Source: Psychroserpens jangbogonensis
Lineage (GTDB): Bacteria > Bacteroidota > Bacteroidia > Flavobacteriales > Flavobacteriaceae
Length of the DNA stretch: 64,000 nucleotides
Assembly: GCF_000797465.1 (NCBI RefSeq)
Contig: NZ_JSWG01000009.1
Coordinates: forward strand, 1-64,000
Reading direction: 5' to 3'
Within the stretch, counting starts at the first letter, position 1, and the number at the start of each line of letters is the position of its first letter. Of the stretch, positions 20,854 to 54,811 are shown one piece after another. The translations under genes were made by a program, and so were the position numbers. A model generated the notes under the pieces. It ran no database searches. It had not been told where the DNA came from and was given only the letters and a program-made list of their open reading frames with translations.

Positions 20854-21117
20854 TTAATAAATCGACGAAGTGAGTGTTTTGTTCTTTAAACGCATCATTC
20901 GACGTGTGTAAATCTCTTCAAGTATGTTATTAATCTCCTGAAATTTAGGTGTTAACTCGGTAAGTTTACCATTACTATTCGTTGTTAGTTGACGTTTACA
21001 GCACTTGCATGTATATTCTTTAACATGTAAAGTTACCTTCTTTGTCATTTCGTAATTATGCCCAAAAAGGTCGCAGTAAAATCTCATTGGAGCAGGAGCG
21101 TTTGTAGTTTTTTTCAT
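20854..21117 (-). CDS. Small zinc-binding protein, family member 3
   Basis: 87 aa. RFYCDLFGHNYEMTKKVT, then VKEYTCKCCKRQLTTNSNG and LTPKFQEINNILEEIYTRRM. It is closely similar to member 2 across about 60 residues (the VKEY, TTN and LTPK blocks), so the pair looks like a tandem duplication. The conserved helix after the zinc site ends in a basic RRM/NRM patch that could bind nucleic acid; this is inference. It lies upstream of member 2 on the same strand with an 80-nt gap. Confidence 0.75.
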   Translation of the reverse strand: MKKTTNAPAPMRFYCDLFGHNYEMTKKVTLHVKEYTCKCCKRQLTTNSNGKLTELTPKFQEINNILEEIYTRRMMRLKNKTLTSSIY

Positions 21118-21179
21118 GGCTTAATGATTTGGGGACTACTAACATAGAGAAAAATATCAAACAAAAACGTTTAAAGGTT

Positions 21180-51775: not shown

Positions 51776-53674
51776 ATGAGCGATGCTTTAAAACATGAAT
51801 GCGGAATTGCACTCGTAAGACTTAAAAAACCATTAGAGTATTACAAAGAAAAGTACGGAAGTGCATTTTACGGCGTAAACAAAATGTATCTCATGATGGA
51901 GAAGCAGCACAATCGTGGTCAAGATGGAGCTGGTTTTGCAAGTATTAAATTAGATACTTTACCTGGAGAACGCTATATAAGTCGAGTACGATCTATCGCT
52001 CAGCAGCCAATTCAAGATATTTTTGCTCAAATAAATGAACGCATCAATGATGAGTTAGATGAGCATCCTGAATACCAAGATAATGTGGCACTTCAAAAAA
52101 AACATATACCATATATAGGTGAATTGCTTTTAGGTCATGTTCGTTATGGAACCTTTGGGAAAAACAGTGTTGAGAGTGTTCATCCATTTTTAAGACAAAA
52201 CAATTGGATGCATAGAAATCTTATTGTAGCTGGAAACTTTAATATGACCAATGTAAACGAATTGTTTGATGGCTTAGTTGAACTTGGTCAGCATCCTAAA
52301 GATAAGGTTGACACCATTACTATTATGGAGAAAATTGGTCACTTTCTTGATGATGCGGTTAGTAAAATTTATAAAAATCTTAAAAAAGAAGGCTACAGTA
52401 AAAGCGAATGTTCTCCTTTAATTGCAGAACGTTTAAATGTTGCTAAAATATTGAAAAAAGCATCTAAAAACTGGGATGGTGGTTATGCTATGGCTGGTTT
52501 ATTAGGTCATGGAGATTCTTTTGTACTGCGAGATCCTGCTGGCATTAGACCAACTTATTATTTTGAAGATGATGAGATAGTCGCTGTCGCATCAGAGCGT
52601 CCTGTATTACAAACTGTATTTAATGTTGATTTTGAAGATGTAAAGGAATTAGCTCCAGGACATGCTATTATTACTAAGAAATCTGGAGAGGTATTCATTG
52701 AAAAAATCATTGAACCTTTAGAACGAAAAGCTTGTTCGTTTGAACGTATTTATTTTTCAAGAGGAAGTGATGCAGAGATTTATCAGGAGCGTAAAACTTT
52801 AGGGAAATTATTAATGCCTAAAGTATTAGAAGCTATAAATGAAGACACTAAAAATACAGTCTTTTCATATATACCAAATACTGCCGAAACTTCGTTCTTC
52901 GGAATGATAGAAACTGTTGAACAACATCTCAACGAACGAAAAACACAAGCAATATTAAATGGTAACGGAAAACTTTCAGCAGAAAACGTAACCGAGATTC
53001 TTTCTGAAAGACCTAGAATTGAAAAGATTGCCATCAAAGATGTAAAACTTAGAACCTTCATTACAGAAGACAGTAGTCGTGATGACTTAGTAGCTCATGT
53101 TTATGATGTCACCTATGGTGTTATTAAACCAACTGACAACTTAGTAATTATAGATGATAGTATTGTAAGAGGTACAACACTTAAAAAGAGTATCATTAAA
53201 ATGATGGATCGCTTAAACCCGAAACAAATTGTCGTGGTTTCATCTGCTCCACAAATTCGTTATCCAGATTGTTATGGTATTGACATGGCAAACCTTGAAG
53301 GTTTAATCGCTTTTAGAGCCATGCTTGAGTTATTAAAAGAAAATGATAAATACCACATGATTGAAGAGGTATATCATAAGTGCAAAGCTCAACTAAAATT
53401 AAAAGACCGTAAGGTCAAAAACTTTGTAAAAGATTTATATAGTGAATTTACTGTTGATCAGATTTCAGATAAGATTTCAGAATTGATATCAGACGATACT
53501 GTAAAAGCAAAGGTGAAAACTATTTTTCAGCCAATAGAAAATCTACATAAAGCATGTCCTAAAAATTTAGGAGATTGGTATTTCACGGGAAACTATCCTA
53601 CTGCTGGTGGTAATCGTGTGGTTAACAAGGCTTTTATTAATTTTTACGAAGGGAATAAAGAAAGAGCCTACTAG
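51776..53674 (+). CDS. purF: Amidophosphoribosyltransferase, long form
   Basis: 632 aa, longer than a standard PurF of about 470-510. It makes phosphoribosylamine from PRPP and glutamine, the first step of purine synthesis. Seen: a short propeptide then HECGIALVRL with the nucleophile Cys at 9, HNRGQDGAGFA (about 46), LLGHVRYGTFG (about 122), SFVLRDPAGIRPTYYF and the PRPP loop LVIIDDSIVRGTTLKKS (about 455). Extra residues are in the glutaminase domain (about 85-115 and 170-235) and at the C-terminus. It is probably the Bacteroidota long paralogue; it has its own promoter. Confidence 0.92.
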   Translation: MSDALKHECGIALVRLKKPLEYYKEKYGSAFYGVNKMYLMMEKQHNRGQDGAGFASIKLDTLPGERYISRVRSIAQQPIQDIFAQINERINDELDEHPEYQDNVALQKKHIPYIGELLLGHVRYGTFGKNSVESVHPFLRQNNWMHRNLIVAGNFNMTNVNELFDGLVELGQHPKDKVDTITIMEKIGHFLDDAVSKIYKNLKKEGYSKSECSPLIAERLNVAKILKKASKNWDGGYAMAGLLGHGDSFVLRDPAGIRPTYYFEDDEIVAVASERPVLQTVFNVDFEDVKELAPGHAIITKKSGEVFIEKIIEPLERKACSFERIYFSRGSDAEIYQERKTLGKLLMPKVLEAINEDTKNTVFSYIPNTAETSFFGMIETVEQHLNERKTQAILNGNGKLSAENVTEILSERPRIEKIAIKDVKLRTFITEDSSRDDLVAHVYDVTYGVIKPTDNLVIIDDSIVRGTTLKKSIIKMMDRLNPKQIVVVSSAPQIRYPDCYGIDMANLEGLIAFRAMLELLKENDKYHMIEEVYHKCKAQLKLKDRKVKNFVKDLYSEFTVDQISDKISELISDDTVKAKVKTIFQPIENLHKACPKNLGDWYFTGNYPTAGGNRVVNKAFINFYEGNKERAY

Positions 53675-53775: not shown

Positions 53776-53860
53776 TACATTGGTGTCACCATAACATAAG
53801 TAGGTTAAGTTCATGGTAGATTTGGGGCAAAAAAAGGTGAACGTAAGTTCACCTTTTTTT
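53776..53860 (+). ncRNA. Predicted small RNA, copy 1, with promoter box and terminator
   Basis: Box TACATTGG (53776-53783, one mismatch) lies 3 nt before a conserved unit starting CACCATAAC at 53787. Predicted RNA about 74 nt. The 5' hairpin pairs ACCATAAC with GTT-C-ATGGT (one bulged C) and inside TAA with TTA around a GTAGG loop. A single-stranded linker AGATTTGGGGCAAAAAAA follows, then the terminator GGTGAAC-GTAA-GTTCACC and seven Ts (53836-53860). No conserved peptide: a short ATG frame changes phase between the copies. An Rfam search, including Flavo-1, is the first test. Confidence 0.65.
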
Positions 53861-54020
53861 ATTAACATAGGTTAATAATTATATAACGACTTGTTTCTCA
53901 ATTTCTTTATACAATCAATTAAAGCATTTCTTTATTGCTACTAATGATGCCGTTTTCCCCGTTTAAGCCAATTTATTCGTCGTTAGTCTAATAAATTTAA
54001 CAATTAGAAAAAAGTCCAGT

Positions 54021-54101
54021 TATATTTGTTTCACCATAACATAAGTAGGTTAAGTTTATGGTAGATTTGGGGCAAAAAGGTGAACGTAAGTTCACCTTTT
54101 T
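54021..54101 (+). ncRNA. Predicted small RNA, copy 2, with promoter box and terminator
   Basis: Box TATATTTG (54021-54028, exact) lies 3 nt before CACCATAAC at 54032. The ~70-nt unit differs from copy 1 by a single base (the bulged C becomes T) and two fewer As in the linker, while sequence outside the unit is unrelated. The same two hairpins form; the terminator is GGTGAAC-GTAA-GTTCACC then five Ts (54079-54101). Confidence 0.68.
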
Positions 54102-54148
54102 CATTTTTAGTCCATATCAAAACTAAATCCTTTTCTATTTCTAAAGCA

Positions 54149-54202: not shown

Positions 54203-54811
54203 TTACTTTGCTTCTGCGTAACGTCTTTCAACTTCATTCCAGTTAACAACTTTAAAAAAGGCTTCAATATAATCTGGTCGTCTATTTTGATAATTTAAAT
54301 AGTACGCGTGCTCCCAAACATCTAATCCTAAAATTGGTGTTCCTCCACAAGTAACACCAGGCATTAACGGGTTATCCTGATTTGGTGTTGAACATACTTC
54401 AACCTTTCCTCCTTTATGAACACATAACCATGCCCAACCTGATCCAAACTGTGTTGCTGCAGCCTTACTAAAAGCTTCAACAAAAGCATCTTTAGATCCA
54501 AATTCTGCGTCGATAGCATCTTTTAAATCACCAGATAAATAACCTCGATCTTCTGGATTCATTACTTCCCAAAACAATGAATGGTTATAAAAACCTCCTC
54601 CATTATTTCTAACACCAGCATTATTCATGTCAAGATTTGTTAAAATATCTCCAATAGATTTCCCTTCTAATTCTGTACCTGCAATAGCGGCATTAAGTTT
54701 AGAAGTGTAACCATTATGATGTTTAGAGTGATGAATTTCCATTGTACGAGCATCAATATGAGGTTCTAAAGCGTCGTATGCGTATTTTAATTTCGGTAAT
54801 TCGAAAGCCAT
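54203..54811 (-). CDS. sodB: Superoxide dismutase, Fe/Mn family
   Basis: 202 aa, no signal peptide, so cytoplasmic. Metal ligands are seen in [12 protein letters not shown] (His near 28), [10 protein letters not shown] (His near 77) and [19 protein letters not shown] (Asp/His near 165). The GSGWAWLCV segment is typical. Fe versus Mn use is not decided from sequence. Promoter TAAATTTG at 54854-54847, leader about 30 nt. Confidence 0.96.

Follow-up and report, generated by a model that had tools for sequence, protein, structure and literature searches.

Tandem RNA units between purF and sod

Within the window, i.e. the whole 64,000-nucleotide stretch of DNA analysed here, two convergent genes enclose a pair of tandem units of about 72 nt. 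The left neighbour is a purF-like amidophosphoribosyltransferase gene on the plus strand (51776–53674), recognised by its glutamine amidotransferase domains, and the right neighbour is an Fe/Mn superoxide dismutase gene (sod) on the minus strand (54203–54811), assigned by domain match; both are conserved neighbours of the units in relatives. Unit 1 (53787–53860, the TTCATGG sibling) and unit 2 (54032–54101, the TTTATGG sibling) lie on the plus strand and were delimited by sequence, fold and match to a covariance model (CM), which scores 99.1 bits for unit 1 (53786–53861) and 99.5 bits for unit 2 (54031–54104). As the initial annotation had stated, the two are nearly identical: the sole differences are one C/T exchange at position 53812 and its counterpart, located in a bulge, and a run of seven versus five A residues ahead of the terminator, while the intervening and upstream DNA of the two units shows no relatedness.

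Each unit is preceded at a distance of 3 nt by a box of the TAnnTTTG type, as had been noticed before, namely TACATTGG with one mismatch (53776–53783, plus strand) for unit 1 and TATATTTG, a perfect fit (54021–54028, plus strand), for unit 2; we regard both as -7 promoter boxes. According to the fold and the family alignment, unit 1 begins with a bulged 5′ hairpin with a GTAGG loop (53788–53817, plus strand). It continues with a single-stranded linker containing the proposed seed GATTTGGGG (53819–53827, plus strand), chosen on the basis of its complement CCCCAAATC and of the conservation of GATTTGGG in relatives, and ends in an intrinsic terminator with a 14-bp stem and a GTAA loop (53829–53860, plus strand), identified by repeat comparison and folding. 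In unit 2 the search for the complement CCCCAAATC places the same proposed seed at 54064–54072, and repeat comparison and folding place the intrinsic terminator at 54074–54101 (both plus strand). The bulged hairpin and the TTTGGGG linker of the earlier description are thus present in both units, the folds agree with each other, and the unpaired linker reads GAUUUGGGGC. For unit 1 the minimum free energy (MFE) is -23.1 kcal/mol (z = -4.64) and for unit 2 it is -21.3 kcal/mol (z = -4.46), with none of 200 shuffles as good in either case. The GNRA cap that had also been described is correct for these two terminators (GTAA). Terminator loops of relatives vary (AUCU, UUCU, ACUC, UCUC and others), and the cap is thus not a feature of the family. 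At the level of sequence, each unit has the promoter and the intrinsic terminator of an independent transcription unit.

A conserved RNA family of the Flavobacteriaceae

A cmscan of the whole window against 4227 Rfam families, including Flavo-1 (RF01705), as initially suggested, returned no match at the gathering score. A BLASTN search of the kind proposed alongside it revealed abundant homologues: with a 90-nt unit as query, 299 same-family genomes (the own genome included) were searched, and about 238 gave strong matches (E ≤ 1e-8), the matches in the other 61 being weaker or absent. A CM built from 24 units matched in 33 of the 395 genomes of a phylum sample, scanned with stricter filters than in the small searches, and all 33 belong to the same family. 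Eight same-family genomes gave no match, which, with the rows in kinship order, amounts to 33 of 41 genomes inside the family (own included) versus 0 of 354 other Bacteroidota. Given its spread over both surveys, the observation cannot be attributed to chance. A scan of named genomes matched at least 118 stretches; the 80 matches listed come either from flavobacterial genera, Zobellia, Maribacter, Flagellimonas, Winogradskyella, Algibacter, Aquimarina, Tamlana and Flavobacterium among them, or from uncultured Flavobacteriaceae, Flavobacteriia, Bacteroidetes and Bacteroidota. The listed titles and abstract openings of open-licence PMC articles on flavobacterial or conserved Bacteroidota sRNAs and sponges do not name the family, which is weak evidence for novelty. 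The units belong to a Flavobacteriaceae-wide RNA family that apparently has not been described previously.

The locus is conserved as well. Arrays hold one to six copies, six being found in Zobellia uliginosa, with a typical spacing of about 185–250 nt; purF adjoins the array at all 58 loci analysed, which come from 56 genomes, and at 49 of them sod was detected within 1.5-kb flanks that limit its detection. The own genome (G000) carries two strong units, and its next CM match scores 31 bits. Weak CM matches at C34:193262, C3:120171 and C62:773068 were dismissed as units, as they share terminators only.

To describe conservation we used 110 distinct units from 58 loci chosen by blastn or CM, within which the units were located by a loose match to their first 21 nt. 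All 110 contain GTAGG and 108 contain GATTTGGG, the remaining two reading AATTTGGGG, and the mean major-letter frequency over the first 28 nt is 0.947. For the terminator, the corresponding value is 0.63 over 19 columns of a separate alignment of 150 units (135 distinct), which were taken from 159 matches in 76 sources (75 of the 80 listed named loci plus L001). GTAGG and GATTTGGG occur in 135 of 135 units of this second alignment, a count that we excluded as evidence because its loci had been found with a pattern containing those motifs, only 9 of the 135 rows being without the selection pattern. Both sides have changed in 10 of the 11 pairs of the terminator stem. Over the whole structure there are 271 double-changed cells, compared to a shuffled mean of 68 and with none of 500 shuffles reaching 271, a count tilted by the fitting of the alignment to the structure model. 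The 5′ hairpin is 96.8% paired and mostly invariant, four of its 11 pairs never varying and only two changing on both sides, so that covariation supports the hairpin weakly. Upstream of the units, the -7 box TAnnTTTG stands at a single offset in most of 152 distinct stretches from relatives, with letter frequencies of.88 (T),.90 (A),.99 (T),.93 (T) and.70 (G). A further conserved element, C..AA followed by TTTT, is found family-wide at 45–34 nt ahead of the core, about where a -33 region would be expected; it is more extended than a plain TTTG box and might be a regulator site. In line with the initial proposal, selection appears to act on RNA, as judged from the near-invariant core, the covarying terminator and the promoter box at one offset.

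Seed complements, candidate targets and a candidate sponge

The own genome contains CCCCAAATC at 20 places, two of them in the sRNA genes and 18 elsewhere; the reversed pattern occurs 8 times. Four of the 18 non-self sites begin no more than 40 nt upstream of a start codon, compared to about 2% of strand positions, an estimate which assumes roughly 3,200 genes. These four sites precede genes for a CAP-domain lipoprotein (PF00188), a putative esterase (PF00756) and an 87-aa protein, and a 42-aa gene. The other 14 are located antisense in coding sequences (10), sense in a coding sequence (1), in the coding sequence of the 42-aa gene (1), 176 nt before a gene (1) and in the anti-seed RNA discussed below (1). 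Among 30 relatives picked for strong sRNA matches, the pattern CCCCAAATCN{2,30}ATGAAA has 36 occurrences versus 3 for a dinucleotide-matched version with CAAATCCCC, the reversed patterns of the two giving 3 and 7, respectively; owing to the choice of relatives, this enrichment says nothing on genomes without the sRNA. Part of it stems from one conserved coding sequence read antisense, which accounts for 15 of the 36 sites as judged by the matched strings (14 were checked to lie opposite a long open reading frame), and 3 more fall within other coding sequences. Of the 18 sites left, 13 stand in start-region contexts (the ATG of L159 opens 6 codons, inside the leader of the 42-aa gene), three precede open reading frames of 142, 161 and 536 aa, and two do not. 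A comparison of genomes bearing and lacking the sRNA with CCCCAAATCTN{1,30}ATGAA was set aside, as this pattern also matches the sRNA genes themselves. The suggestion that the TTTGGGG linker serves as seed gains support from the location of its complement before start codons. At the computational level, the units have a conserved accessible seed with complements at the start regions of unlinked mRNAs, as a trans-encoded base-pairing sRNA would, and the best reading of these sequences is that GAUUUGGGG would be the main seed of multicopy trans-acting base-pairing sRNAs.

One candidate target lies in the window itself. The gene for the 87-aa protein (FGHNYEM... CKCC; 20854–21117, minus strand), which has no Pfam match, carries CCCCAAATC in its putative 5′UTR (21126–21134, minus strand), 8 nt before the ATG. 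Among the collected proteins, blastp finds the 87-aa family in the own genome and in G045, G267, G197 and G059, and the homologous genes of these four have such sites, too. The CAP lipoprotein recurs by blastp in the own genome, G019 and G254, the Pfam CAP domain being confirmed for two of the three. By eye, many other candidate-target proteins begin like lipoproteins or signal peptides, and one has a T9SS sorting domain. As a side observation, a complement of the sRNA 3′ arm, CACCATGAACTTAACC, is found at G000:C60:55391–55415 (L039, about 1000–1025), shortly before a secreted-looking gene. Separately, a long near-complement of the sRNA core lies at G000:C7:206095–206121 (L038, about 1000–1030), immediately beyond the 3′ end of a gene on the minus strand, the last residues of which resemble T9SS cargo; this stretch could be a 3′UTR decoy or a decayed copy.

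Extended complementarity is seen at the 42-aa gene (G000:C62, about 259890–260140; L006, 1440–1690), which is located between scoB, a CoA transferase gene (PF01144), and a peptide ABC-transporter gene. Its product ends in ...LTKKIFML, is conserved in many relatives and has no Pfam match. The sRNA core has two to three complementary sites in the leader and first codons. The three anti-seed sites at G000:C62, about 259930–260010, had been considered as a sponge; since this region equals the leader and first codons of the 42-aa gene, it was reclassified as a target. In 30 scoB loci (L194–L223, own included), selected solely as best scoB matches, a small LTKKIFML-like open reading frame follows scoB in 22, and in each of these the complementarity of the 60-nt leader to the core exceeds that of every one of 200 mononucleotide shuffles, in two of them narrowly. 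The best leaders contain CCCCAAATCTACCATAAACTTAAC, 24 nt which form a perfect complement of the own TTTATGG sibling. In 20 further loci, mainly from a second clade with units of the type GGTAAGATTTGGGG, the open reading frame is present in 13 and its leader is complementary beyond shuffles in one of the 13. Comparison of 22/22 with 1/13 indicates that the link between the sRNA and the 42-aa gene is clade-dependent. Wobble-type substitutions in the leaders are not clearly favoured (A>G 10/388, T>C 4/271).

A separate locus presents complements of both the loop and the linker of the sRNA. This putative anti-seed RNA is encoded in a stretch of about 85 nt near G000:C7:148256–148340 (L358 = C7:146000–151000, about 2240–2345), flanked by an ABC-transporter gene (PF00664, PF00005) and a gene of the sigma-70 family (regions 2 and 4). 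A TATGTTTG box is followed by CTTAACCTACTTAT in an unpaired 5′ tail, by CCCCAAAU in an 11-nt hairpin loop and by a terminator; the predicted fold has an MFE of -29.3 (z = -6.44), and none of 200 shuffles is as good. In three relatives, G125, G219 and G260, found through CCCCAAATCT before ATGAA, the layout is retained, the stem differs in sequence, and the terminator loop additionally carries CCCAAATC. The gene neighbours look the same in G125 and G219, G260 being assigned by sequence only. The duplex energy of the whole molecules is better than that of all 200 shuffles in one of the four anti-seed loci. From its sequence, the anti-seed RNA looks like a candidate sponge of the family. The initial annotation had offered regulators or sponges as roles of the tandem units; for the units themselves the regulator role is the better supported, and it is this separate locus that resembles a sponge.

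Known sRNAs, rival explanations and proposed mode of action

Multicopy sibling sRNAs are familiar from LhrC or Qrr, in which redundant tandem or dispersed copies share a seed, as here. LhrC and Qrr belong to other phyla and have other seeds, the likeness to our units being one of general architecture only. By way of working, FopS of Bacteroides (RF04319) is the closest known system. It shares with our units the occurrence in Bacteroidota, multicopy siblings of about 65–70 nt, canonical promoters, a terminator as 3′ end and a core antisense to start-codon regions. According to PMC11697453, FopS binds start regions and represses the translation of susC-type mRNAs, antagonism with RbpB being part of its action. 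RbpB, the protein partner of FopS, is of the RRM_1 type. FopS is described as a single-stranded 5′ seed stretch followed by a terminator, i.e. without a 5′ hairpin (PMC11697453), whereas our units start with an 11-bp hairpin instead of a single-stranded 5′ end; moreover, FopS genes are dispersed and ours form a single tandem array. The FopS model scores 26.0 bits on unit 1 compared to a gathering score of 56 bits, which is exceeded in only 2 of 296 phylum-sample genomes, both from one other family. A search for RRM_1 (PF00076, the RbpB fold), which addresses gene presence only, gave no match in the own genome, with Bacteroides ihuae as positive control. Membership in FopS was therefore rejected on account of the score, the 5′ architecture and the absent partner gene.

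A weak resemblance is seen in both directions. An alignment is possible between the FopS seed region UUCAUGGUA..AGAUUU..GG and ours, the partial alignment being UUCAUGGU---AGAUUU..GG, and our CM gives overlapping right-strand matches at each of the six FopS loci, with 11.4–18.7 bits (E 0.026–0.77), a wrong-strand match reaching 13.2 bits in one. These weak reciprocal alignments may reflect remote homology or convergence on start-codon complementarity. The FopS cores (L084, L085, L109, L110, L112, L113) read as the complement of TTAACCTTAAATCTAATACCATGAAAAACAC. Several sub-threshold FopS matches, found in flavobacteria and in one further family (among them L086, L088 and L093), were discarded, as they lie on or antisense to starts of the ATGAAAAAC type; such matches may mark targets rather than sRNAs. 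Two further RNAs were compared by description only. GibS of B. thetaiotaomicron is likewise a Bacteroidota sRNA, with a seed, R1, acting at translation initiation regions, and, unlike our array, it is a single gene with a non-canonical promoter (PMC11697453). Rfp18 and other Rfp RNAs come from Flavobacterium psychrophilum and thus from the bacterial family of our host, Rfp18 being a conserved sRNA that affects protease mRNAs, pairs through its 'third stem-loop' and is not presented as part of a tandem family, as far as the accessible parts of PMC9723704 describe it.

We consider it probable, at roughly 80%, that the units are Flavobacteriaceae-wide multicopy trans-acting sRNAs which pair at start codons and likely block initiation, with their dose set by copies and lowered by titration. 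Several observations count against this reading: part of the motif enrichment is coding sequence read antisense, the near-invariance of the 5′ stem exceeds what simple seed pairing needs, the leaders of the GGTAAGATTTGGGG clade pass the shuffles in a single case of 13, wobble-type substitutions in leaders are not clearly favoured, and a chaperone of the RRM_1 (RbpB) fold gave no match in the own genome. The invariant core could instead be a protein site, the units binding or titrating a protein in the manner of CsrB/RsmX or 6S RNA. This would suit the conservation of the 5′ stem in sequence as well as in pairing (four of 11 pairs invariant), and titrating RNAs typically occur in multicopy arrays. 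However, neither the complement CCCCAAATC(TACCATAAACTTAAC) before start codons nor a second RNA with anti-seeds in loops would be predicted by protein titration, to which we assign a small probability. Smaller still is the chance that the units act as sponges of some other, principal sRNA, the alternative raised by the initial annotation. Their core is indeed complementary to the short RNA near G000:C7:148256–148340, yet its complement is carried by many mRNA leaders, and it is the purF–sod units that form the multicopy family, the anti-seed RNA having been seen only in the four loci examined.

Tandem near-identical copies might also suggest a mobile or repetitive element (REP/MITE-like) without RNA function. 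We deem this very improbable, as there is a single locus type, next to purF in every one of the 58 loci, the own genome has only two strong copies, and the core is kept while the flanks diverge. A match to a known mobile repeat had been named initially as grounds for refutation. Phages and plasmids gave weak partial matches only, one phage record and three plasmid records at E 0.3 that cover no more than 16% of the query, and viral contigs gave no match to the unit. Just as improbable is a short peptide gene or leader, for which no evidence was found; the siblings differ from each other by an indel (7/5 A), relatives differ by indels as well, their terminator loops being variable, and these differences and the covarying stem speak against it.

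In the preferred reading, that of start-codon-pairing sRNAs, each copy would be transcribed from its own promoter of the sigma-ABfr type and end at its own terminator. The linker GAUUUGGGG(C) would pair with complementary CCCCAAAUC(UACCAUAAACUUAACCUACUUAUG) elements, which are located at or just upstream of start codons, and the loop and 3′ arm of the 5′ hairpin would extend this pairing. By analogy with FopS of Bacteroides, on which the hindrance of initiation is modelled, pairing would most likely block the translation of surface lipoproteins, secreted (T9SS) proteins and small proteins. The dose would be set by copy number, and the separate anti-seed RNA probably titrates the family. More tentatively, and with odds somewhat below even, these elements may form a lineage-wide circuit ancestral to much of the family, in which a dose-array, an anti-sRNA acting through loop and tail, and the 42-aa antisense leader would jointly control T9SS cargo and surface lipoproteins, with no RbpB-type protein involved. 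If so, a near-frozen sRNA core would be faced by anti-seeds that the companion RNA displays in its 5′ tail, in the loop of a hairpin and in some cases in the terminator loop as well, and by a 42-aa mRNA leader that is nearly a full antisense of this core.

To our knowledge, few base-pairing sRNAs have been described in Bacteroidota outside Bacteroides. The present family occurs in most of the 299 sampled genomes of its bacterial family, its locus being conserved and its core almost invariant. As candidate targets can be named for testing, a sponge candidate is at hand and many hosts can be cultured (for example Zobellia uliginosa, Flavobacterium, Maribacter, Winogradskyella, Algibacter), post-transcriptional control of flavobacterial surface proteins becomes directly testable.
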